Source of the DNA: a virus
Virus record (IMG/VR): IMGVR_UViG_3300006754_003315
Span: 1-29,107 of that record
DNA length: 29,107 nt
Direction: 5' to 3' (one strand)
The position numbers and the translations under genes are program-made. The first letter of the stretch is position 1. Each line of letters opens with the position of its first letter. This document shows positions 5,955 through 17,657 of the stretch, piece by piece. The notes under the pieces are model-generated. The model was not told the DNA's origin and did not search any database. It saw only the letters and a program-made list of their open reading frames with translations.

Positions 5955-5982
5955 TTGACTCACCTCTAATAGATGTTATAAT
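5955..5982 (+). promoter_or_regulatory. Sigma70-type promoter of the tRNA island
   Basis: TTGACT (5955-5960) and a perfect TATAAT (5977-5982) are separated by 16 bases. Initiation would fall near 5988-5991, about 20 bases before the first tRNA-like RNA. The -10 directly touches the terminator stem that starts at 5983. Confidence 0.75.
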
Positions 5983-6398: not shown

Positions 6399-6473
6399 GG
6401 TTCCGTGACCGGAAATGGCAATCGGTCTTGATTTGTAATCAAGAATATGTGGGTTCGAGTCCCATCGGAACCT
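6399..6473 (+). tRNA. tRNA-Thr(TGT)
   Basis: Acceptor GGTTCCG/CGGAACC, D stem ACCG/CGGT, anticodon stem CTTGA/TCAAG with loop TTTGTAA (anticodon TGT), T arm GTGGG/CCCAT with TTCGAGT, discriminator T. CCA is not encoded. Confidence 0.93.
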
Positions 6474-6478
6474 CTTAT

Positions 6479-6536
6479 GGGCTGGGTTGGATCTATACTA
6501 GTTGCTGCGGGGTTCGATTCCCCGATCAGTCCACCA
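6479..6536 (+). tRNA. Minimal tRNA-like RNA with encoded CCA
   Basis: A 58-base element: acceptor GGGCTGG/TCAGTCC, a perfect T arm CGGGG-TTCGATT-CCCCG, discriminator A and a genomic CCA. Only 22 bases remain between acceptor and T arm, too few for both D and anticodon arms. The canonical tRNAs here lack CCA, so its presence suggests a functional tRNA-like 3' end. It may be a processed tRNA mimic or a deletion product. Confidence 0.5.
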
Positions 6537-6550
6537 TACAAGGAGAGAAT

Positions 6551-6700
6551 ATGATTCACTGGATACTGAATAAGTTTTTTCCAGTCTGTAACGACTGTCG
6601 TTCCTTTAATATGATGGATGTTTCACCTACTTCAGAGTTTAGAACGTTTTTTCTTTGCAAGAGTTGTAGTGGCACTAACACTTATAGAGAGGGTCGGTAA
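6551..6700 (+). CDS. Small zinc-ribbon-like protein
   Basis: 49 residues. Start at 6551 follows AAGGAGAGAAT; the frame also extends upstream through two tRNA elements, which is rejected. Two pairs, CNDC and CKSC, about 24 residues apart, predict a single zinc ribbon. Its stop overlaps the next ATG (TAATG), so the two are coupled. Possible nucleic-acid or protein binding; no family recognised. Confidence 0.65.
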   Translation: MIHWILNKFFPVCNDCRSFNMMDVSPTSEFRTFFLCKSCSGTNTYREGR

Positions 6701-6864
6701 TGACTGATTGGCAAAAAGAAATACTGGAACAAGAGAGATTGATTAAGGAGCGTATGGCTAAGATAGATCATCAGATAGCTACGGCAAACTGGGCTATATA
6801 TTCTTCAGTAGTCCTTGCTGTCCTTGCTACGATGGTTGTGATTGTTGTTAAGTTCTACCTTTAA
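6700..6864 (+). CDS. Small C-tail-anchored membrane protein
   Basis: 54 residues, starting in a TAATG overlap with the zinc-ribbon gene. Residues 1-30 are a charged amphipathic helix or short coiled coil (QKEILEQERLIKERMAKID). A single membrane segment follows (YSSVVLAVLATMVVIVVKF) close to the C-terminus. This layout, with a cytosolic coiled coil and one C-terminal helix, is common in phage small membrane proteins. It ends 4 bases before tRNA-Ser. Confidence 0.65.
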   Translation: MTDWQKEILEQERLIKERMAKIDHQIATANWAIYSSVVLAVLATMVVIVVKFYL

Positions 6865-6868
6865 AAAT

Positions 6869-6953
6869 GGAAGGTATGCGAATTGGAAAGCAGACTGTTT
6901 TGAAAACAGCCGCCCCTAAGACGGGTTGATGGGTTCGAGTCCCTCACCTTCCG
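6869..6953 (+). tRNA. tRNA-Ser(TGA)
   Basis: Acceptor GGAAGGT/ACCTTCC with discriminator G (serine type). Anticodon hairpin CTGT-TTTGAAA-ACAG (TGA). A long variable region around CCGCCCCTAAGACGGG marks class II. The T loop TTCGAGT is closed by three G-C pairs. CCA is not encoded. Confidence 0.9.
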
Positions 6954-6987
6954 CTTTAAAGGGCATTATTATGAAAGGATCTTAAGC

Positions 6988-7386
6988 ATGAAGAAACTGT
7001 ACAAGTTTCATTGGGACTGCGGAAGACACGGTGATATACATGGGTTGTTTGTTGCCGAAGAAGAGGATGTAGAGCGGGCCGTAGGAGAAATAGTTTATTT
7101 TGGAGAGGCTTTAGGCAAGCACCCCGAGATCCGTGGCGAGCTTGATTGGGACGACCTAGAAGTTTTATCTGATGATCAAAAGAAGATAGAATGGCTAGTA
7201 GGGCTGATGGGGACAACAGATATTTCTGGTTCTAATCCGCTCGACTACATAAGAATTAACTGTGCCAAGTGCGGTTATGAGATTTGTGAAGACGGGGCAT
7301 GGTCTGAGCATCAAATAATCGACGAAGAATACTACTGTAAAGTGTATAATAAAGAAGACGATGAATGTCATCACGAGGTTTATTAA
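6988..7386 (+). CDS. Hypothetical acidic protein with CxxC
   Basis: 132 residues. The start ATG follows GAAAGGATCTTAAGC. The N-terminal part (MKKLYKFHWDCGRHGDIHGL) looks like a small alpha/beta domain. A late CAKCGYEIC motif plus a C-terminal CHHE could bind a metal. Strongly acidic overall. It overlaps the next ORF by one base (TAATG). Function unknown; the position inside the tRNA island may reflect early expression. Confidence 0.65.
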   Translation: MKKLYKFHWDCGRHGDIHGLFVAEEEDVERAVGEIVYFGEALGKHPEIRGELDWDDLEVLSDDQKKIEWLVGLMGTTDISGSNPLDYIRINCAKCGYEICEDGAWSEHQIIDEEYYCKVYNKEDDECHHEVY

Positions 7387-7589
7387 TGGAACATGCTATC
7401 TGGGTACTTGAAGCAATTATAAGAGGTGGTTTTAATGGTGATGATCCGCAGAATTGTCATCTAGCTCAGCTAGGACGCAACGAGCTATCTGAACTAAAGG
7501 ACTTGCTCGTCGAACTCAGAGACGAGGCTGCAAACGATGGAATGCCAGACCTAAGCGGTAGGATTCAGGCATTTATTACGGGGCTGTGA
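7386..7589 (+). CDS. Small helical hypothetical protein ending inside tRNA-Lys
   Basis: 67 residues from the ATG at 7386, which shares a base with the upstream stop; the longer start at 7365 would only deepen the overlap. Predicted all-helical and acidic (NELSELKDLLVELRDEA). The last three codons lie in tRNA-Lys, and the stop TGA is tRNA positions 8-10. Full-length translation and tRNA maturation therefore compete on the same RNA. Confidence 0.6.
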   Translation: MEHAIWVLEAIIRGGFNGDDPQNCHLAQLGRNELSELKDLLVELRDEAANDGMPDLSGRIQAFITGL

Positions 7590-7652
7590 CAGATAAGGTA
7601 ATGTACTTGACTTTTAATCAAGGCAATGTGGGCTCGATTCCCACCGGCCCCA
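7580..7652 (+). tRNA. tRNA-Lys(TTT)
   Basis: Acceptor GGGGCTG/CGGCCCC, D stem ACA/TGT, anticodon CTTGA-CTTTTAA-TCAAG (TTT), T arm GTGGG-CTCGATT-CCCAC, discriminator A. The 5' ten bases overlap the end of the preceding ORF. CCA is not encoded. Confidence 0.94.
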
Positions 7653-7663
7653 CTGTCAATCAT

Positions 7664-7735
7664 GGGCGGTTGATGAAATTGGGATCATCCTAGCCTTGCA
7701 AGCTGGTTTTACGGGTTCGAGTCCCGTACTGTCCA
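7664..7735 (+). tRNA. tRNA-Ala(TGC)
   Basis: Acceptor GGGCGGT/ACTGTCC keeps the G3-U70 pair that marks alanine. D stem ATGA/TCAT, anticodon CTAGC-CTTGCAA-GCTGG (TGC), T arm ACGGG/CCCGT, discriminator A. CCA is not encoded. Confidence 0.94.
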
Positions 7736-7736
7736 C

Positions 7737-7789
7737 TGCGGATAACCTGATCAGTGGCTACTCTTCATGGGGGTAGTCGTCCGCAACCA
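7737..7789 (+). tRNA. T-arm-less tRNA-like RNA with CAT anticodon and encoded CCA
   Basis: A 53-base element: acceptor TGCGGAT/GTCCGCA (7 bp), discriminator A and CCA. The single large hairpin GGCTACTC-TTCATGG-GGGTAGTC has a 7-base loop with U33 and anticodon CAT (Met, or Ile if modified). A small CTGATCAG palindrome sits where the D arm should be, and there is no T arm. Not a standard bacterial tRNA. Confidence 0.5.
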
Positions 7790-7905
7790 ATACGGCCTTT
7801 GAATGTAGGTCGGAACATTACCCTACCTTGGTCCTCTTTACAGAGTTAAATTGGCCAGCCAAGGTTCAGTTCAAGGGGCACGCAGGAACTCGTGAGCCTG
7901 CACAC
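7790..7905 (+). ncRNA. Structured non-coding spacer RNA before tRNA-Ile
   Basis: No ORF is supported. Several stems can form: AATGT/ACATT and GTAGG/CCTAC, which overlap and are mutually exclusive; CCTTGGT/GCCAAGG enclosing CTC/GAG; and GCAGG/CCTGC enclosing CTC/GAG. They may be processing signals or decayed tRNAs. Confidence 0.35.
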
Positions 7906-7978
7906 CGTACTCGCTGCATCGGTTATGCGGTTTTCCCTGATAAGGAAGACGTACTGTGTTCGACTCACAGGAGTACGA
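7906..7978 (+). tRNA. tRNA-Ile(GAT)
   Basis: Acceptor CGTACTC/GAGTACG, D stem TGCA/TGCG with a GG-containing loop, anticodon TTTCC-CTGATAA-GGAAG (GAT), T arm CTGTG-TTCGACT-CACAG, discriminator A. The first base C is unusual for bacteria. One extra base sits between D and anticodon stems. Confidence 0.85.
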
Positions 7979-8002
7979 CTTACTTAACAAAAGGAAGAAG
8001 AG

Positions 8003-8371
8003 ATGAATAAGAAAGACCTAAAGATTTCTTACTACAAAGGGAAAGGCCCTGGTGGTCAGAATAAGAATAAGGTAGAGACAGGATGTAGGATTGTTCATAT
8101 CCCCACAGGACTAAAGGTGGAGATAGACGAACAGCGTACCCGCAAGCAGAATCATCGCATAGCTCTTAAGCGTATCGAGGAAAAAATAAAAGAACAACAA
8201 GACGAGCAGCAGGCAGCAGAGAAGAAGGCGAGACGCGACGATAAGATTAAAAACACTCCAAGGATTCGCACATACGATTTCAAAAAGGGAATTGTCACGA
8301 ACCATACTAACGGCAAGACAGCTCCTTTGAAAGAAGTGCTAGAGAAAGGTAGGATTGATCTTCTACATTAA
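8003..8371 (+). CDS. GGQ release-factor-like peptidyl-tRNA hydrolase
   Basis: 122 residues. The catalytic loop GKGPGGQNKNK (GGQ at 17-19) followed by CRIVHIPTGLKVEIDEQRTR is the class I release-factor catalytic domain, which enters the peptidyl-transferase centre and hydrolyses peptidyl-tRNA. The C-terminus keeps PRIRTYDFKKGIVTNHT, like the end of RF1/RF2. The N-terminal domain and codon-recognition domain are absent, so it cannot read stop codons as RF1/RF2 do. That architecture resembles rescue factors (ArfB/YaeJ, PrfH relatives). The basic linker (KKARRDDKIKN) could touch rRNA. RBS AAGGAAGAAGAG precedes the ATG. With the tmRNA downstream it points to ribosome rescue. Confidence 0.88.
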   Translation: MNKKDLKISYYKGKGPGGQNKNKVETGCRIVHIPTGLKVEIDEQRTRKQNHRIALKRIEEKIKEQQDEQQAAEKKARRDDKIKNTPRIRTYDFKKGIVTNHTNGKTAPLKEVLEKGRIDLLH

Positions 8372-8388
8372 TTAAGGAGGCTGGCTCA

Positions 8389-8787
8389 ATGGCGGCACTG
8401 CTCCTATTGTTTTGTTTTGCATTACAACCCAACGAAGAAGTTGCCCTTGAAGAGACAGTAGATCTAATAGAGGTCAATCACTTTTATGATGATGAGGCTA
8501 GACTGGTCTTTGACCAAGCTATCTTCTATGACTGGTCCTGTTATTCCAACCGTTATCAAGTTAAAGCCTGGAGACTTTTGAAAGATAGATCCCAAATTCC
8601 AACGTACAATTATCAGACGGGACTTTACGAGTGTATATGGATGGATGGGAAATTACTTAGAAGAATAAAATGTAAGATAGTACGCGAGTCTTGGACCCAG
8701 GAAGATCCTGAAATACAAGAGAGGCTACTCTTACCAAAAGAATATAGAAAAGGACTAAGAAAACTTAGGGAAATAAAGAAGAAGTAG
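8389..8787 (+). CDS. Hypothetical protein with hydrophobic N-terminus
   Basis: 132 residues, strong RBS AAGGAGG. Residues 1-14 (MAALLLLFCFALQP) are hydrophobic without basic residues, so they may be a weak signal sequence or lipoprotein-like anchor (a Cys is at 9). The rest is mixed and charged, with aromatic DWSCYSNRYQVKAWRLL and a basic C-terminus (KGLRKLREIKKK). It directly precedes an HNH remnant whose frame overlaps its last codons. Function unknown. Confidence 0.6.
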   Translation: MAALLLLFCFALQPNEEVALEETVDLIEVNHFYDDEARLVFDQAIFYDWSCYSNRYQVKAWRLLKDRSQIPTYNYQTGLYECIWMDGKLLRRIKCKIVRESWTQEDPEIQERLLLPKEYRKGLRKLREIKKK

Positions 8788-8863
8788 AATACTAGAAGAG
8801 ATAAAAAAGTGTGAAGTTCTATGTGCTAATTGTCATAGAAAAGAACATAAAGCGGGCGATTAA
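8777..8863 (+). pseudogene. C-terminal remnant of an HNH endonuclease, ending in tRNA-Val
   Basis: The frame from 8777 reads RRSRILEEIKKCEVLCANCH and then RKEHKAGD. The CEVLCANCHRKEH core is the typical zinc-binding C-terminus of small phage HNH endonucleases. No start codon or catalytic N-terminal part is present: TAA at 8774 closes the frame. Its stop TAA lies at tRNA-Val positions 8-10. A second remnant of the same kind ends in tRNA-Gly at 11090. Confidence 0.7.
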
Positions 8864-8926
8864 CTCAGCGGCTAGAGTGTTTGGCTTACATCCAAATGGT
8901 CGGGGGTTCGAATCCCTCATTGCCCA
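8854..8926 (+). tRNA. tRNA-Val(TAC)
   Basis: Acceptor GGGCGAT/ATTGCCC, D stem ACTC/GAGT, anticodon TTTGG-CTTACAT-CCAAA (TAC), T arm GGGGG/CCCTC with TTCGAAT, discriminator A. The 5' end overlaps the HNH remnant. CCA is not encoded. Confidence 0.95.
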
Positions 8927-8929
8927 CTA

Positions 8930-9187
8930 CCCCGAAGGCCGTTCAATTCGACCGTGACCTTGGTGAACCTCTAGGACGGGTCGCGACCGTGTACGTTTTG
9001 GGCAGGGGACAATTTATTAGCGAAGACTACTAGGATGTGGGCTTAGAAGCAGCCATCATTTAAAGAGTGATTCCCTTCCGTAGAAAGAAGGGGGCGTATG
9101 GTAACAACCAACTCTCGCGGAAAGCATGTGCGGGGGCGTCATGCGAACATGCAGCATGGTCTTTGGCGTAGTAGCACACTGGTATAG
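8930..9187 (+). ncRNA. Structured RNA containing a 23S rRNA GTPase-associated-centre mimic
   Basis: Bases 9032-9066 match E. coli 23S positions 1054-1088 at 34 of 35 sites, as I recall that sequence, including TTAGAAGCA with A1067. Bases 9166-9183 match 1091-1108 at 16 of 18 sites, including A1095. The closing helix H42 is kept by pairing rather than identity: ACTAG (9029-9033) with CTGGT (9179-9183). A 99-base insert (9067-9165) replaces two bases in H44 and has its own stems (CCCTTC/GAAGGG, GCATGT/ACATGC, AGAGT/ACTCT). Upstream, CCCC (about 8931) can pair with GGGG (about 9005), enclosing more hairpins. In ribosomes this fold binds uL11 and recruits bL12 and translational GTPases. The boundaries are estimates; the role is unknown. 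Confidence 0.8.
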
Positions 9188-9197
9188 CTAATAACAC

Positions 9198-9272
9198 GGT
9201 GCCGTATCCCAACTGGTAGAGGAACAAGACTTAAAATCTTGTAGTTTGTGGGTTCGACCCCCACCGGCATCA
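9198..9272 (+). tRNA. tRNA-Leu(TAA), short variable loop
   Basis: Acceptor GGTGCCG/CGGCATC, D stem TCC/GGA with CTGGTAGA, anticodon CAAGA-CTTAAAA-TCTTG (TAA), T arm GTGGG-TTCGACC-CCCAC, discriminator A. The variable region is only TAGTTT, not the long class II arm usual for leucine. It starts 11 bases after the rRNA-like element. Confidence 0.92.
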
Positions 9273-9371
9273 CTAAATGAGATACCCTGATTGGCGAGGA
9301 TTGGCAATCTGGACTTGTGATATTTTAATTTGTTGGATAGACTTAATACTTAGGGGACTAGGTATTCGTTA

Positions 9372-9445
9372 GGTGTGGTATCCCAACAGGTAGAGGAGCT
9401 AAGCTCAAACCTTAGTAGTTGAGGGTTCGACCCCCTCCCACACCA
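9372..9445 (+). tRNA. tRNA-Leu(CAA), short variable loop
   Basis: Acceptor GGTGTGG/CCACACC, D arm TCCCAACAGGTAGAGGA, anticodon CTAAG-CTCAAAC-CTTAG (CAA), variable TAGTT, T arm GAGGG-TTCGACC-CCCTC, discriminator A. Same D-arm type as the TAA and TAG leucine tRNAs, so the three likely arose by duplication. Confidence 0.92.
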
Positions 9446-9450
9446 CTCAT

Positions 9451-9524
9451 GGTACGGTACGCCAACTGGCAGAGCGACTAGTTTTAGGAACTAGTGTTTG
9501 AGGGTTCGACTCCCTCCCGTACTA
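9451..9524 (+). tRNA. tRNA-Leu(TAG), short variable loop
   Basis: Acceptor GGTACGG/CCGTACT (G1-U72), D arm CGCCAACTGGCAGAGCGA, anticodon CTAGT-TTTAGGA-ACTAG (TAG), variable TGTTT, T arm GAGGG-TTCGACT-CCCTC, discriminator A. CCA is not encoded. Confidence 0.92.
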
Positions 9525-9529
9525 CTAAT

Positions 9530-9615
9530 GGAGGGTAACCAAATTGGCTACGGAAGCTGCTTGCTAAGCAGTAGCCCCTAAGACGGGTTGGCGGGTTCGA
9601 TTCCCTCACCCTCCG
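9530..9615 (+). tRNA. tRNA-Ser(GCT)
   Basis: Acceptor GGAGGGT/ACCCTCC with discriminator G, anticodon GCTGC-TTGCTAA-GCAGT (GCT). The long variable region GCCCCTAAGACGGG is shared with tRNA-Ser(TGA). T loop TTCGATT. Confidence 0.92.
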
Positions 9616-9646
9616 CTTACTTACTTGGAACTCGAAAGGACAGGAC

Positions 9647-9982
9647 ATGCCTTACATCCCACAGGAACATAGAAACTTAATAGACGATAGTATTGATGTA
9701 TTAATAGAAGATTCTCTTCACGTCCCAAAGGAAAAAAGAGGAGGTGCTCTGAACTATATCATCTGTCGATTGACGTTGGGGATTTTAGACCCTCGTGGAT
9801 ATACCGAACTAAGTAATGCGTTAGGTCATATCTCTTCTGCCGAAACTGAGATCAGACGTAGGCTCTTGGACCCGTATGAGGATAAATGCATAGTTGATAA
9901 TGGAGACTTAGATGACATTAAAAACCTGTGTGAAATTGCATTGGAGGACTTAGAACGTTCTCAAATGGGCTTGAAAAGATGA
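9647..9982 (+). CDS. Small protein resembling DUF6899-type phage proteins
   Basis: 111 residues, RBS GAAAGGACAGGAC. The pattern MPYIPQEHRNLID at the N-terminus, GALNYIICRLTLGIL in the middle and RLLDPYEDKCIVDNGDL late matches, from memory, the small DUF6899-like family, found in phages and microbes without known function (members usually show PYEDxKIxENGD). All-helical and cytosolic. The last codon region overlaps the next ATG by 4 bases. Confidence 0.7.
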   Translation: MPYIPQEHRNLIDDSIDVLIEDSLHVPKEKRGGALNYIICRLTLGILDPRGYTELSNALGHISSAETEIRRRLLDPYEDKCIVDNGDLDDIKNLCEIALEDLERSQMGLKR

Positions 9983-10167
9983 CTATCTCACAGGAATATT
10001 TTGAAGCTTTAGAGCCTTTTGACCGTGGTTACGTGGTATACTTATATGGAAGACGAGACGACGAGCCTAATATTCCTAACGAAGAAGAACCTCCTTACGA
10101 GCTAGGGAGTATAGAATACACTCAGTATCTATCTGGAAAAAGACAAGCAATTTCAGCAACAGGATAA
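9979..10167 (+). CDS. Small acidic hypothetical protein
   Basis: 62 residues, coupled to the previous gene by an ATGA overlap. Acidic and proline-rich in the middle (DEPNIPNEEEPPYELGS). No motif, membrane segment or metal site. Probably an accessory early protein. Confidence 0.55.
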   Translation: MTISQEYFEALEPFDRGYVVYLYGRRDDEPNIPNEEEPPYELGSIEYTQYLSGKRQAISATG

Positions 10168-10173
10168 TTTATT

Positions 10174-10491
10174 ATGACAGATACACTAGAAACTACTCAA
10201 CTATACCGCTTTCGCATTTGGAAAGAGGTAGGTTCCGATGAATACAGTATGGACGATGACGTTTATACGAACGAGGTTCCGCTGGAATTTATTGAGAAAT
10301 TTAATCAGTCGGGCAAGGTCTTTACTATCTTCGCAGATTCAGGATCTATTGATAATGCCGAGGGGCCTGTCCTCTTAATTCTAAGTCAAGATAAAGAAAG
10401 TATGAAGTCTTATATGGCTGGCTTTTTCTTGATGCAAAAGCTAGATGAGATATTTGAGTCTGGACTAGAAAACATAGAGATTAGAGAATAA
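10174..10491 (+). CDS. Hypothetical acidic protein
   Basis: 105 residues, acidic. Alternating strands (LYRFRIWKEV, then KVFTIFADS, then PVLLILSQD) and a C-terminal helix (SYMAGFFLMQKLDEIF) suggest a small alpha/beta fold. The RBS is weak (AGGATAATTTATT), so translation may depend on the gene 6 bases upstream. It ends just before tRNA-Arg. No family recognised. Confidence 0.58.
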   Translation: MTDTLETTQLYRFRIWKEVGSDEYSMDDDVYTNEVPLEFIEKFNQSGKVFTIFADSGSIDNAEGPVLLILSQDKESMKSYMAGFFLMQKLDEIFESGLENIEIRE

Positions 10492-10496
10492 TATTT

Positions 10497-10569
10497 GGGC
10501 GATGAGTGTGACGGAATAGCACGCTAGTCTACGGAACTAGAAGAAGGGGTTCGACTCCCTTATTGCCTA
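10497..10569 (+). tRNA. tRNA-Arg(ACG)
   Basis: Acceptor GGGCGAT/ATTGCCT, D stem GTGT/GCAC, anticodon CTAGT-CTACGGA-ACTAG (ACG, wobble A that would need deamination to inosine by host TadA), T arm AGGGG/CCCTT, discriminator A. Confidence 0.92.
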
Positions 10570-10596
10570 CTTCACTAACGTGATAAGGAGAATTTG

Positions 10597-10641
10597 ATGA
10601 ATACCTTAACTTTTGGTGAACTTGAAGAAGTGCTGTGGTAG
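10597..10641 (+). CDS. 14-codon ORF with strong RBS (leader peptide candidate)
   Basis: Reads MNTLTFGELEEVLW. It follows AAGGAGAATTTG, one of the better ribosome-binding sites in the island, and stops just where a strongly structured non-coding stretch begins. It may be a leader peptide or a truncated gene. Confidence 0.4.
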   Translation: MNTLTFGELEEVLW

Positions 10642-10852
10642 CGGGGGCGTCTATGGACGCTGTGAGCGGTTGTATGGCTTATTCGGACGCTGAAAAGTTT
10701 TCGTTAAGTCAGGATGACTAAGAGTGATGATAAGGCTCGGCATCTGTTCTAGAAGGATGCGAAATTCGGTACGTTGTAGCCGACGTTTAAATAAGAATGT
10801 GGGAGGACTTTATGAGGGTCCGTTAGTACCACCAGCCGAGGCGGGCTTTAAC
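10642..10852 (+). ncRNA. Structured non-coding stretch, function unknown
   Basis: No ORF is supported. Visible stems: GCGTC/GACGC near 10648, AGTC/GACT near 10712, GCATC/GATGC near 10740-10760 inside GGCT/AGCC, GGAC/GTCC near 10805, and CCGTTA/TAACGG (about 10820-10853) enclosing AGCC/GGGCT. The first hairpin contains GCGGGGGCGTC, also found in the insert of the rRNA-like RNA at about 9130. Confidence 0.4.
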
Positions 10853-10925
10853 GGGAGTGTGGCAGATAAGGTAATGCACTTGGCTCTTAACCAAGATAAT
10901 GTGGGTTCGATTCCCACCGCTCTCA
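10853..10925 (+). tRNA. tRNA-Lys(CTT)
   Basis: Acceptor GGGAGTG/CGCTCTC, D stem GCA/TGC, anticodon CTTGG-CTCTTAA-CCAAG (CTT), T arm GTGGG-TTCGATT-CCCAC, discriminator A. Close in sequence to tRNA-Lys(TTT) at 7580, a likely duplicate. Confidence 0.94.
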
Positions 10926-10950
10926 CTGAAACGTTGATAAACGGACATAG

Positions 10951-10975
10951 GTGGGTTCGATTCCCACGCAGATCA
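10951..10975 (+). pseudogene. Orphan 3' tRNA half
   Basis: T arm GTGGG-TTCGATT-CCCAC followed by GCAGATC and A has the layout of a tRNA 3' end. The complementary 5' acceptor strand (GATCTGC) is not found nearby; only a small CGTT-GATA-AACG hairpin precedes it. Likely a recombination remnant of a Lys-type tRNA T arm. Confidence 0.55.
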
Positions 10976-10990
10976 TAGGCTGACGGGCCT

Positions 10991-11090
10991 ACCTCAAGAC
11001 GTTGGGGGCGTTTCCAAAATCTTCAAAGAAATTGAAAAATGTGTAGTTCTATGTGCCAACTGTCACGCAAAGGAACATTGGCAAGATTAG
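10991..11090 (+). pseudogene. C-terminal remnant of a second HNH endonuclease, ending in tRNA-Gly
   Basis: After a TGA in the same frame at 10982, the frame reads KIFKEIEKCVVLCANCHAKE, then HWQD and stop TAG at 11088-11090. CVVLCANCHAKEH is the HNH C-terminal zinc motif. The catalytic region is missing. The stop is formed by tRNA-Gly positions 8-10, as at the first remnant. The two remnants share sequence but are not identical. Confidence 0.68.
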
Positions 11091-11151
11091 TTTAGTGGTA
11101 AAACATTTGACTTCCACTCAAAGGTCATCGGTTCGATTCCGATATCTTGCA
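11081..11151 (+). tRNA. tRNA-Gly(TCC)
   Basis: Acceptor GCAAGAT/ATCTTGC, anticodon TTTGA-CTTCCAC-TCAAA (TCC), T arm ATCGG-TTCGATT-CCGAT, discriminator A. The D arm TAGTTTAGTGGTAAAAC is the usual glycine type. The 5' ten bases overlap the HNH remnant. Confidence 0.95.
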
Positions 11152-11169
11152 CTCTATAAAGGTGATGTA

Positions 11170-11499
11170 ATGAAGAAGCTACTTTTAATCTTGTTCTTTT
11201 TCTTTGTCCAATTGATGTTCTTTTCCCTTGGCTTCTTTGCAAGCGATGCCTTTGGTCAGCACCATCACAACGGACACTGGCACGCACATCCCCACGCAGG
11301 GCTACACAGGCATGGGCCTGTGATCGCCTATCGCCCAGTTGTTACTTGGTATCCAACCGGGACATACATGAGTATCGGGCCAACTTACATCTCGCCACAG
11401 AGGTATGTAAGATTTGGCGTTAATGTTAATTTTTCTCAGTACCGGGGATATAGTACGTTCGATTTTAGAGCTGGAAAAACACGGTACTATCGGAGGTAG
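11170..11499 (+). CDS. Exported histidine-rich small protein
   Basis: 109 residues from the ATG at 11170; an upstream extension to 11053 would read through tRNA-Gly and is rejected. A clear signal peptide covers residues 1 to about 28 (MKKLLLILFFFFVQ, then a cleavage region near SDAFGQ). A His-rich stretch follows (HHHNGHWHAHPHAGLHRHG), able to bind Zn, Ni or Cu. The remainder is Tyr/Arg-rich beta-type sequence. Likely periplasmic or cell-surface; role unknown (metal handling or envelope modification are guesses). Confidence 0.7.
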   Translation: MKKLLLILFFFFVQLMFFSLGFFASDAFGQHHHNGHWHAHPHAGLHRHGPVIAYRPVVTWYPTGTYMSIGPTYISPQRYVRFGVNVNFSQYRGYSTFDFRAGKTRYYRR

Positions 11500-11503
11500 T
11501 ATT

Positions 11504-11695
11504 ATGAATACTATTAATGTTGCACTTAAGTGCGGTAAGACATTCGAACATAAGAATGCACGCAGACGCCTACTTTCCCTTCCGTTTTGGTTGGTGATCG
11601 TAGAGCATGATGAACACGGTCATAAAATGGTACACTGGTATCAAAGACGAGAGGTTTGTCATTGGAGCAAGCAAGTCAAGGATCATAGTCATTAA
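11504..11695 (+). CDS. Small basic hypothetical protein
   Basis: 63 residues with RBS GGAGGTAG. Basic and His-rich C-terminus (EHDEHGHKMVHWYQRRE). The short hydrophobic piece LLSLPFWLVIVE is too short for a firm membrane prediction. Its last 89 bases overlap the next ORF in another frame. Function unknown. Confidence 0.55.
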   Translation: MNTINVALKCGKTFEHKNARRRLLSLPFWLVIVEHDEHGHKMVHWYQRREVCHWSKQVKDHSH

Positions 11696-11966
11696 AAACA
11701 ACAGGAAAACTCAACGACAAGATATTGTTGAGAGAGTTAGGGGCTGGTTAAAGCCTGAAGGTATCGAACTTTTCCGTGACTACTATAGAGAGTATGGCAG
11801 AGTTGATCCTGTAATCTTTAACGGGGCAGTCCCTCACCCTGTTCATTTTCGAGAGGGTATGGCTGTTAGGAATCAGATTCGCAAGATGTTTCCTGGCGAC
11901 TTTACCGATCACGAACTTGATGATATGTGGGTAGGAATTGTTAGAGAAGCAATTGAGGAAGAATAG
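11607..11966 (+). CDS. Hypothetical protein overlapping its neighbour by 89 bases
   Basis: 119 residues from the first ATG. A basic strand-rich N-terminus (RFVIGASKSRIIVIKNNRK) precedes a helical part (IVERVRGWLKPEGIELFRD) and an acidic end. The start is uncertain, because no RBS or later ATG marks a shorter form before the overlap ends. Both overlapping frames read as protein-like. The stop is immediately followed by tRNA-Gly(GCC). Confidence 0.58.
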   Translation: MMNTVIKWYTGIKDERFVIGASKSRIIVIKNNRKTQRQDIVERVRGWLKPEGIELFRDYYREYGRVDPVIFNGAVPHPVHFREGMAVRNQIRKMFPGDFTDHELDDMWVGIVREAIEEE

Positions 11967-12038
11967 GCAGCTATCGTACAAAGGCTAGTATATAACGTTG
12001 CCAACGTTGAGATCGGAGTTCGATTCTCCGTAGCTGCA
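11967..12038 (+). tRNA. tRNA-Gly(GCC)
   Basis: Acceptor GCAGCTA/TAGCTGC, D stem GTAC/GTAT, anticodon TAACG-TTGCCAA-CGTTG (GCC), T arm CGGAG-TTCGATT-CTCCG, discriminator A. It begins on the base after the preceding ORF's stop. Confidence 0.93.
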
Positions 12039-12044
12039 CTTTTA

Positions 12045-12116
12045 GAGCGAGTGGCCGAGAGGCAAGGCGTCTGACTGCAACTCAGATCTACGGGGGTTCG
12101 AATCCCTCTTCGCTCT
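12045..12116 (+). tRNA. tRNA-Cys(GCA)
   Basis: Acceptor GAGCGAG/TTCGCTC with discriminator T, the cysteine identity base. D stem GCC/GGC, anticodon TCTGA-CTGCAAC-TCAGA (GCA), T arm GGGGG/CCCTC. CCA is not encoded. Confidence 0.93.
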
Positions 12117-12122
12117 CTGTTT

Positions 12123-12427
12123 GGGGCCGACTTGGTTTCGACCTATTGGACGGATGTAAAGTTGCGTGTGGTAGTTGGTCAAAGGGCTACCTAAAAAATT
12201 GACTAACATTTAATTGCAAACGAAAACTTTGCTTTAGCTGCGTAAGCAGTAGGGGTTATCTAGCACCCTGTTAACCAAAGCTAGATACCTGTTTTGAAGC
12301 TGGACTGTAAGAGGTCATTAAACTATCCTGCCCCTTGGTCGTGCAGGGCTTAGCTCGACACAAACACGTAGACGCTTTATTGAAAACAATTAGGGACGGG
12401 GGGTTCGAATCCCCCCCGGCTCCACCA
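12123..12427 (+). ncRNA. ssrA: Transfer-messenger RNA (tmRNA)
   Basis: The tRNA-like ends are complete: GGGGCCG pairs with CGGCTCC including the G3-U70 alanine signal, the 5' part has the typical GGTTTCGAC, the T arm has GGTTCGAATCC, and A-CCA is encoded. The resume codon and tag frame at 12216-12245 read GCA onward as ANENFALAA then TAA, a standard LAA-ending degradation tag. The interior has room for the usual pseudoknots. tmRNA with SmpB frees stalled ribosomes and tags the protein for ClpXP; no smpB is seen here, so host SmpB would be used. Confidence 0.96.
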
Positions 12428-12431
12428 AAAA

Positions 12432-12461
12432 TTCACAGTATCTCCACTATTGGTGTATAAT
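12432..12461 (+). promoter_or_regulatory. Sigma70-type promoter before the HNH gene
   Basis: TTCACA (12432-12437) and a perfect TATAAT (12456-12461) with 18-base spacing, 5 bases after the tmRNA CCA and 21 bases before the HNH start. Confidence 0.6.
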
Positions 12462-15161: not shown

Positions 15162-15391
15162 CTCTATACAAAATCGGAACCGAAGTAGAGATATGGCAAT
15201 CTGATGGAAAGAGCATCAAGGGGCATGTTCATGCTATAACTATTCGTGAATCGGGGGTTATATACAATGTCGTTTGGTGGAATGGTGATGCTAGACATGA
15301 TAAATGGTTGGCTGAGTATGAAGTTCGTGATCACGCCCGTTCTGAAAAACACAAGATAGGATTTGCTAGTAATGTCGCTAATAAAGAATGA
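15158..15391 (+). CDS. Small SH3/Tudor-like hypothetical protein
   Basis: 77 residues, ATGA-coupled to dut. Strand-rich: LYKIGTEVEIWQSDGKSIKG, HVHAITIR, YNVVWWNGDARHD. This is a small barrel of the KOW/Tudor/SH3 kind, often used to bind RNA or proteins. The 3' end overlaps the GMP reductase start by 20 bases. The specific role is unknown. Confidence 0.55.
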   Translation: MTLYKIGTEVEIWQSDGKSIKGHVHAITIRESGVIYNVVWWNGDARHDKWLAEYEVRDHARSEKHKIGFASNVANKE

Positions 15392-16541
15392 TCTGAAGCT
15401 TGACTTTGATGATGTTCTCTTGGTCCCTAAGCGTACTAGGGCAGCATCTCGCAAGAGCGTATCTGTCGAGAGAGACTTTCAGTTTTATCACTCGAATAGA
15501 ACCTGGAGTGGCACGCCTATCATGGCTGCTAACATGGATACTACAGGAACTATAGATATGGCTGATCGTTTATGGGCTCATGACATGATTACGTGTCTTC
15601 ATAAGCATTATACCTATCCCGAATTAGCAGAGTTCTTTAACGATGTTCACGAAGCAGAAAAGAGCTGGCTAATGGCTCACGCCTGGGTTAGTATAGGCAT
15701 CAAAGACCATGATTTTGATAGACTGGACGCACTAGTCACTGAGATAGAAGGCGTTCCTAATATATGTATTGATGTAGCTAATGGATACACAGACGATTTT
15801 GTTAAGCATTGCTCTAAGATTAGAGAACACTATGCCACCAATGATGAGTACCCTATTATTATGGCTGGCAACGTCTGTACTCCTGAGATGGTTCAAGAGC
15901 TAATCTTGCATGGAGGAGTGGATATTGTCAAGGTTGGCATCGGTCCTGGCTCAGCCTGTACGACACGCCTCAAGACAGGAGTGGGCTATCCTCAGCTCTC
16001 GGCCATAGCAGAGTGTTCTCATGCTGCCCACGGCCTCAAGAGCTACGAGAAACGGCTAGGACTGATCTGTGCTGACGGTGGTTGTCGCACGCCTGGAGAT
16101 GTTTGTAAGGCTTTCGCGGCGAACGCAGATTTTGTGATGCTTGGGGGCATGTTGGCTGGTACAGACGAGTGTGAGGGTAAATGGTTATATCGTGATCCTA
16201 CCTTCCCCAAAAACACCCTAAAAGACCTTTCTCTTCTAGAAGAACTAGAGAGGGAGAGTATCATAAGCTCGGAAAGTCTAGTAAAAGCACAGCTTGAATT
16301 CTATGGAATGTCATCAGAGCACGCACAAGACAAACACTGTGGTGAAATGAAAAACTATAAGACCAGCGAAGGTCGAGTAAAATATATTGATTATAAGGGA
16401 TCAGCAGAACACGTATTAAGAGATATAGTAGGAGGTATACGTAGCTGCTGTTCGTATATTGGTTCAACATCAATTAAAGATATGAGCAAGTGTGCAGATT
16501 TCGTTCGCGTAGCACGAACACATTATGATCAAACAATCTAG
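15372..16541 (+). CDS. guaC: GMP reductase
   Basis: 389 residues from the ATG at 15372; a TTG three codons upstream is less likely. A TIM barrel of the IMPDH/GMPR family: [12 protein letters not shown] at the start, catalytic C196 in [19 protein letters not shown], then [11 protein letters not shown] and [10 protein letters not shown], and the flap FYGMSSEHA. No CBS domains, and GMPR-type [17 protein letters not shown], so reductase rather than dehydrogenase. It turns GMP into IMP with NADPH and shifts purines toward adenine. Compared with typical GMPRs (about 345), about 25-30 extra residues lie before FYGMSS. A rare phage gene. Confidence 0.9.
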
Positions 16542-16571: not shown

Positions 16572-17657
16572 ATGAAGATAGCTATATTCGGAACAGGTGG
16601 AATGGGAAAGGCCATCATCCACCTACTGAAAACGGTCTACTTCTCAGAACCTATTTCTATAGTAGCGTTTGATAGAGAAGAGGAATGCCCTAGAGGTTTA
16701 CAGTGTGATGAATATCATAGTATTGATGTTAATCAATCATATAGTCATGAGACAAGTCCTATATATGGAAAAGATTTTGACCTTGTATTCTCGGCCCTGC
16801 CCTACTTCTATAATCCCAAGGTTGCAAGCCTAGCGGTAGCGGCAGACGTTCCGTATTTTGATCTTGGTGGGTCAGTACCTATCAGCCGCAAAATCAACGA
16901 GAGATATAAAAATGCTACAGTATTCACTGATCTAGGGCTTGCACCGGGATGGGTAAATATAATGGCAGAGGAAGCCTATAGAGAGCTGTCTCGTACAGGT
17001 GCAGTAGAAGAAATAAGAATGCGTTGCGGAGGTCTTTCAGCACAGCAGCTACCAAAGCACGAAGATCCGTTCGGGTATGCAAAAACATGGTCTGCTGATG
17101 GATTGTACAACGAGTATGCAGACGACTGTGAAGTGCTAGAGGGCGGAAAGATTACTACAGTGCCGGGAATGTTGTGGCTAGAGGATGTAAAAACTCAGGG
17201 GGTTCTCAATTGGCAGGGGTGTCATACCCCGCTTGAAGCCTTTTTTACTAGCGGTGGAGCATCGCATACTCTCCAGTTAATGAAAGACAGAGGGGTTAAG
17301 CATTGCTCATACAAGACACTAAGATACCAAGGACATAGAGATCTTGTCCACTACTTTATTCATACCAAAGGATTCTCTCCAAAGGGATTATCAGAATTGT
17401 TTGCCCCTCATAGAGAAAAAGATATTGTTATTTTAGATGTATGGGGATACTCAGATCGTTTCGAGTATCGCGTCTCTCACGCTATCCATGCTGACTTTGA
17501 AACAGATGGGTATAGTGCTATGCAAAAGGCTACAGCCGCAGGGTTTATTGCTGCGGCATTATCGTCTGATGTTAGTCAGCGTAGACCACTAACATATGCA
17601 GATGTAGATATAGATCTATTCAATTCAACAATAAATAAAATGGGGATTATGAAATGA
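16572..17657 (+). CDS. Saccharopine dehydrogenase-like NAD(P)-dependent enzyme
   Basis: 361 residues. The N-terminal Rossmann motif IFGTGGMGKAIIHLL is at 5-19, DLVFSALPYFYNP follows near 70-82, then TDLGLAPGWVNIMA. The C-terminal dimer domain is like that of saccharopine dehydrogenase and related carboxynorspermidine enzymes. These enzymes make or split imino-acid linkages (lysine, saccharopine or polyamine precursors). RBS TGGAGGCACGCGAG. Unusual in phages: it may alter host amino-acid or polyamine pools, or make a DNA or protein modification. The 3' end overlaps the next gene by 4 bases. Confidence 0.85.
   Translation: MKIAIFGTGGMGKAIIHLLKTVYFSEPISIVAFDREEECPRGLQCDEYHSIDVNQSYSHETSPIYGKDFDLVFSALPYFYNPKVASLAVAADVPYFDLGGSVPISRKINERYKNATVFTDLGLAPGWVNIMAEEAYRELSRTGAVEEIRMRCGGLSAQQLPKHEDPFGYAKTWSADGLYNEYADDCEVLEGGKITTVPGMLWLEDVKTQGVLNWQGCHTPLEAFFTSGGASHTLQLMKDRGVKHCSYKTLRYQGHRDLVHYFIHTKGFSPKGLSELFAPHREKDIVILDVWGYSDRFEYRVSHAIHADFETDGYSAMQKATAAGFIAAALSSDVSQRRPLTYADVDIDLFNSTINKMGIMK

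Follow-up and report, generated by a model that had tools for sequence, protein, structure and literature searches.

The window analyzed in this study is a stretch of 29,107 bases from an IMG/VR virus record and belongs to a large, unclassified phage. At positions 12123-12427 it carries a tmRNA gene; RNAs of this kind release stalled ribosomes and label the incomplete proteins for degradation. The features of the locus and its surroundings are as follows:

5955-5982, + strand: promoter-like site upstream of the tRNA array (11/12 matches, extended -10; consensus match only)
6399-12117, + strand: array of 15 tRNA genes (ARAGORN), closed by the tmRNA gene
8003-8371, + strand: 122-aa protein with an RF-1 (GGQ) domain (PF00472, 86.5 bits), inside the tRNA array
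12123-12427, + strand: one-piece tmRNA gene (ssrA), 305 nt
12123-12142, + strand: 5' part of the tRNA-like domain (acceptor strand GGGGCCG, in which G3 is 12125, followed by the D-loop GGUUUCGAC)
12168-12207, + strand: pseudoknot PK1, upstream of the tag
12216-12245, + strand: tag reading frame, from the GCA resume codon to TAA (ANENFALAA*)
12231-12256, + strand: helix surrounding the stop codon of the tag (limits approximate, from the Rfam alignment)
12252-12287, + strand: pseudoknot PK2
12326-12359, + strand: pseudoknot PK4
12398-12427, + strand: 3' part of the tRNA-like domain (T-arm, acceptor strand in which U70 is 12421, discriminator A and CCA)
12432-12461, + strand: promoter-like site just 3' of the tmRNA gene, before an HNH endonuclease gene (11/12 matches; consensus match only)

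ARAGORN called the tmRNA gene with the tag ANENFALAA*, and the Rfam model RF00023 matched it over its full length (model positions 1-374) at 116.9 bits (E 2.4e-45), far over the gathering score of 47, which excludes a chance match. Direct reading of the sequence, in agreement with the Rfam alignment, revealed that GGGGCCG (12123-12129) pairs with CGGCTCC (12417-12423) in the acceptor stem, which contains the G3-U70 pair (G12125-U12421) and is followed by the discriminator A12424 and an encoded CCA (12425-12427). The tag frame reads GCA AAC GAA AAC TTT GCT TTA GCT GCG TAA. The sequence-only reading had proposed a complete tmRNA with these limits, and had named G3-U70, the encoded CCA, the GCA resume codon, the LAA tag end and TAA as its hallmarks; these limits and features are correct. 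The locus is thus confirmed as a complete and compact one-piece ssrA gene.

Pseudoknots were sought as crossing stems, whose energies were compared with those of 300 dinucleotide shuffles. PK1, upstream of the tag, was equalled by 1/300 shuffles, and of the downstream pseudoknots PK2 was equalled by none (0/300) and PK4 by 12/300. PK3 found no support at 12288-12325, where 214/300 shuffles were as good. The free energy of the molecule is only moderately better than that of shuffles (z -2.26). All features needed by a working tmRNA for charging and tagging are intact, and three of the four pseudoknots are kept.

The tmRNA gene is the last of the array. Only 5 nt separate it from the end of the tRNA-Cys gene, which leaves no room for a promoter of its own, and we infer that it is co-transcribed with the tRNAs. 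The window is overlapped by three more contigs from this virus (99.97-99.98% identity); in two of them (L016 and L019) the tmRNA is identical in 305/305 bases and has the same tRNA neighbours. Its repetition without any difference in independent contigs precludes an assembly accident, but it is not by itself a sign of selection, since the contigs of this population are 99.97% identical overall. The window could not be lengthened by any contig: nothing matches its left end, and its right end matches only L009, which stops at the same place.

Several other observations were made in this region. None of the 15 tRNA genes (15/15) encodes CCA, so that within the array the tmRNA alone does, and in each of them C-T directly follows the discriminator base, which is possibly a 3'-processing signal; at this position C-A is frequent in two huge phages, while other phage contigs show a mixture. 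A lone T-arm sequence at 10951-10967, perhaps a tRNA remnant, is identical to the T-arm of tRNA-Lys (10901-10917), located 50 bases upstream of it. Further downstream, a GMP reductase gene (15363-16541; NCBIfam PRK05096, over cut-off) adjoins a gene for a saccharopine-dehydrogenase-like protein (16572-17657), and the pair lies near genes for thymidylate synthase, a deaminase and ribonucleotide reductase.

A scan of genome contigs for ANEN[FY]ALAA* yielded 98 loci. According to ARAGORN, the identical tag ANENFALAA occurs in Spirochaetota, Bacillota (Fusibacter and other clostridia), Lentisphaerota (Victivallis) and Cloacimonadota. Being used by bacteria of at least four phyla, this canonical tag is neither new nor a pointer to the host, and it is too widespread to single out one to which it might be matched. 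The suggestion that it might be a variant evading or redirecting degradation finds no support, as bacteria of several phyla use it unchanged. That its end would direct products to ClpXP, as had also been proposed, is expected from established knowledge, LAA ends being read by this protease.

In the search for the nearest bacterial tmRNA, about 390 genomes were covered from each of the two phyla to which L063 (Spirochaetota) and L061 (Victivallis) belong. All matches were short and local, none exceeding 50.9 bits, and for this reason no donor or host can be named; no recent capture from a bacterium is visible in the sampled genomes. In a phylogenetic tree, no other sequence was more than 56% identical to the tmRNA of the window, which shared a long branch with L040; the program flagged this join as unreliable. 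The bacteria in this tree had been picked by tag and the phages by 5' end, and we therefore did not use it to address the origin of the gene.

A search for SmpB, which found the protein in 10/10 bacterial controls, was negative for the window (a 29-kb fragment of the genome) and for 25 other records included in the same search; eleven of the SmpB-negative records exceed 85 kb and carry a one-piece tmRNA. The earlier impression that no SmpB is visible in the window was thus correct. A gene for this protein may lie outside the 29-kb fragment; its absence from 26/26 records fits the use of host SmpB, which would be the simplest reading of the sequence data.

Two huge phages (LR756501 and LR756502) encode the ribonucleotide reductases nearest to that of the window (54% and 51% identity). 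Both encode SmpB, and neither has a tmRNA over the cut-off. In a third huge phage (LR756500) we found a tmRNA with the tag GNNAEMRMAA and no SmpB. Different parts of the tmRNA/SmpB system are thus borne by different phages. A tmRNA-like match in LR756501 (718388-718731; L163 1501-1844) was rejected as a candidate, as it scored a sub-threshold 21 bits and ARAGORN found no tmRNA there. This match, which might represent a very diverged tmRNA, is located in a 735-kb phage that also encodes SmpB.

The gene, its structure and tag, its position in the array and its presence across the virus population, all of which were observed here, probably reflect a working phage tmRNA that takes part in trans-translation together with host SmpB. 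From transcription onward we infer the following steps. The tmRNA would be transcribed as the final unit of the tRNA array, its 5' end would be made by RNase P, and exonucleases would trim its 3' end back as far as the encoded CCA. It would be charged via G3-U70 by the alanyl-tRNA synthetase of the host, and host SmpB and EF-Tu would deliver it to ribosomes that have stalled on broken mRNA, where translation would resume at GCA and end at TAA. The product, with ANENFALAA appended, would be destroyed by host ClpXP. The phage would benefit in that ribosomes are not lost to translation when mRNAs are cleaved by phage or host nucleases and transcription in the host ceases; keeping ribosomes available during infection is the most likely role of such host-SmpB-dependent trans-translation.

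Three other explanations were considered, each of them less likely. The tmRNA could be a decoy which ties up host SmpB and so blocks trans-translation in the host, as suggested for mycobacteriophage DS6A. Inhibition of tmRNA by a TLD-only molecule, perhaps through titration of SmpB, has been described (PMC4131195), and a phage tmRNA unaccompanied by SmpB could compete for the host protein. Whereas the DS6A tmRNA is TLD-only, that of the window keeps the tag frame with its resume codon and stop, as well as three pseudoknots, which a decoy would not need, and we consider this role improbable.

It is even less probable that the tmRNA serves mainly to tag proteins selectively, for amino-acid recycling or redirected degradation, possibly via a ClpP-like protease encoded by the phage (20388-21071). 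Tagging of host proteins for amino-acid recycling has been proposed (PMC9004378), and the window does encode a ClpP-family protein (PF00574, 79.6 bits). This protein, however, falls far below the NCBIfam cut-offs for ClpP and also matches phage head-maturation proteases; moreover, the tag is of the ordinary LAA type, and tmRNA acts on stalled ribosomes rather than on chosen proteins. In the sequence of the ClpP-family protein, two residues of the catalytic triad (Ser and His) can be recognized; the protein could serve in head maturation or as a free protease. The co-occurrence of ClpP with phage tmRNA (10/26 records) was dropped as an argument, since it lacks a baseline and head proteases resembling ClpP are widespread among phages. 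The matches to ClpP-like genes in three tmRNA-bearing phage contigs (L147, L148 and G009:C1:88736-89131) were each reported with one internal in-frame stop codon, for which an insert, a split gene or recoding may be considered.

The ssrA gene is a known integration site: it frequently serves temperate elements for attachment, and part of it then travels with them. The gene is very unlikely to be a leftover of such an integration, of the kind represented by the 23-bp stretch of host tmRNA that mycobacteriophages CrimD and Angelica carry and use for integration (PMC3029335), because it is whole rather than a 3' fragment, lies in three contigs inside the phage tRNA array, between tRNA-Cys and the HNH gene, has no integrase-type gene among the window ORFs that were checked (part of the total), and has no close bacterial counterpart among the sampled genomes.

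The 122-aa GGQ protein encoded within the array aligns to residues 231-351 of a 371-aa RF1 and thus corresponds to domain 3/4 of this factor without its N-terminal and codon-reading domains. It keeps GPGGQ, followed by an RF1-like RTY...H segment. A tblastn search against phages at 1e-5 gave no match, but a family search found similar proteins of the same truncated form in the huge phages LR756501 and LR756502 (34% and 32% identical). The protein scored below the membership cut-offs of RF1 (90.7 vs 400 bits, over the last third of the profile only) and, in NCBIfam, of PrfH (63.8 vs 166.65 bits) and ArfB (26.8 vs 100 bits). Like ArfB/ICT1, it has a GGQ-bearing RF-1 domain and lacks the N-terminal domains for codon reading; unlike ArfB, it has the RF1-type RTY...H segment in place of the ArfB-type tail. 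The N-terminal domain of ArfB is homologous to RF domain III (PMC8012679). By analogy, codon-independent peptide release is a possible function of the GGQ protein.

The phage may therefore carry two ribosome-release tools, the tmRNA and the GGQ protein. A more far-reaching idea, which we put forward tentatively and regard as rather unlikely, is that the array constitutes a ribosome-rescue kit, in which a compact tmRNA using host SmpB and a phage-specific, codon-independent release factor reduced to RF1 domain 3/4 would, along with the tRNAs, sustain translation against mRNA- and tRNA-cutting host defences. The main interest of the tmRNA lies in this pairing with the GGQ protein, which is open to laboratory test and raises the question of whether the phage brings its own ribosome rescue, and against what.

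The earlier description of phage tmRNA genes as rare can be upheld only in the sense that they are not common: a published survey found tmRNA in 402 of 18,146 phage genomes (PMC9004378), and tmRNA, SmpB and release factors have been listed for huge phages (PMC7162821), which makes "uncommon" the better word. Phage tmRNAs have already been listed in the literature (PMC4131195), in which we came across no test of their function in the course of an infection. Among 50,697 phage records there was no nucleotide relative of the tmRNA region of the window. A 20-base pattern of the tmRNA 5' end matched 36 viral contigs, many with a predicted tmRNA, and full tmRNA genes are also present in other, unrelated large phage contigs. 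The tags of one-piece genes starting with this 5' end are varied (e.g. ANDNALVPMQMAA, ANNTKHYASEPARMVA, ANNDVELDNFAQAA and ANDDVDSEFYALAA), and that of the window is among the most canonical of them. Four IMG/VR contigs of large phages (L015, L020, L021 and L032) resemble the window in form, if not demonstrably by close kinship, in having a compact one-piece tmRNA (287-289 nt), and differ from it in their longer tags (ANNDVELDNFAQAA, ANDDVDSEFYALAA and ANNDVELDDFALAA).

With the bacterial one-piece tmRNA (RF00023, ssrA) the gene shares the full-length model match, G3-U70, CCA, GCA, the LAA tag, PK1, PK2 and PK4. It differs in its unsupported PK3, in its length of 305 nt, as compared with 340-420 nt in the bacterial genes examined (which had been selected for ANEN[FY]ALAA), and in an identity of at most 56% to those genes. 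With the tmRNAs described in mycobacteriophages Bxz1, Catera and Wildcat, Bacillus phage G, the marine phage Melnitz and huge phages it has in common that it is phage-encoded; these are often found together with many tRNAs (PMC4131195, PMC4472892, PMC9004378, PMC7162821). The tmRNA of Melnitz is a two-piece molecule, in contrast to the one-piece molecule of the window. The tmRNA described here is a further example of the known phage tmRNAs rather than a new sort of thing.
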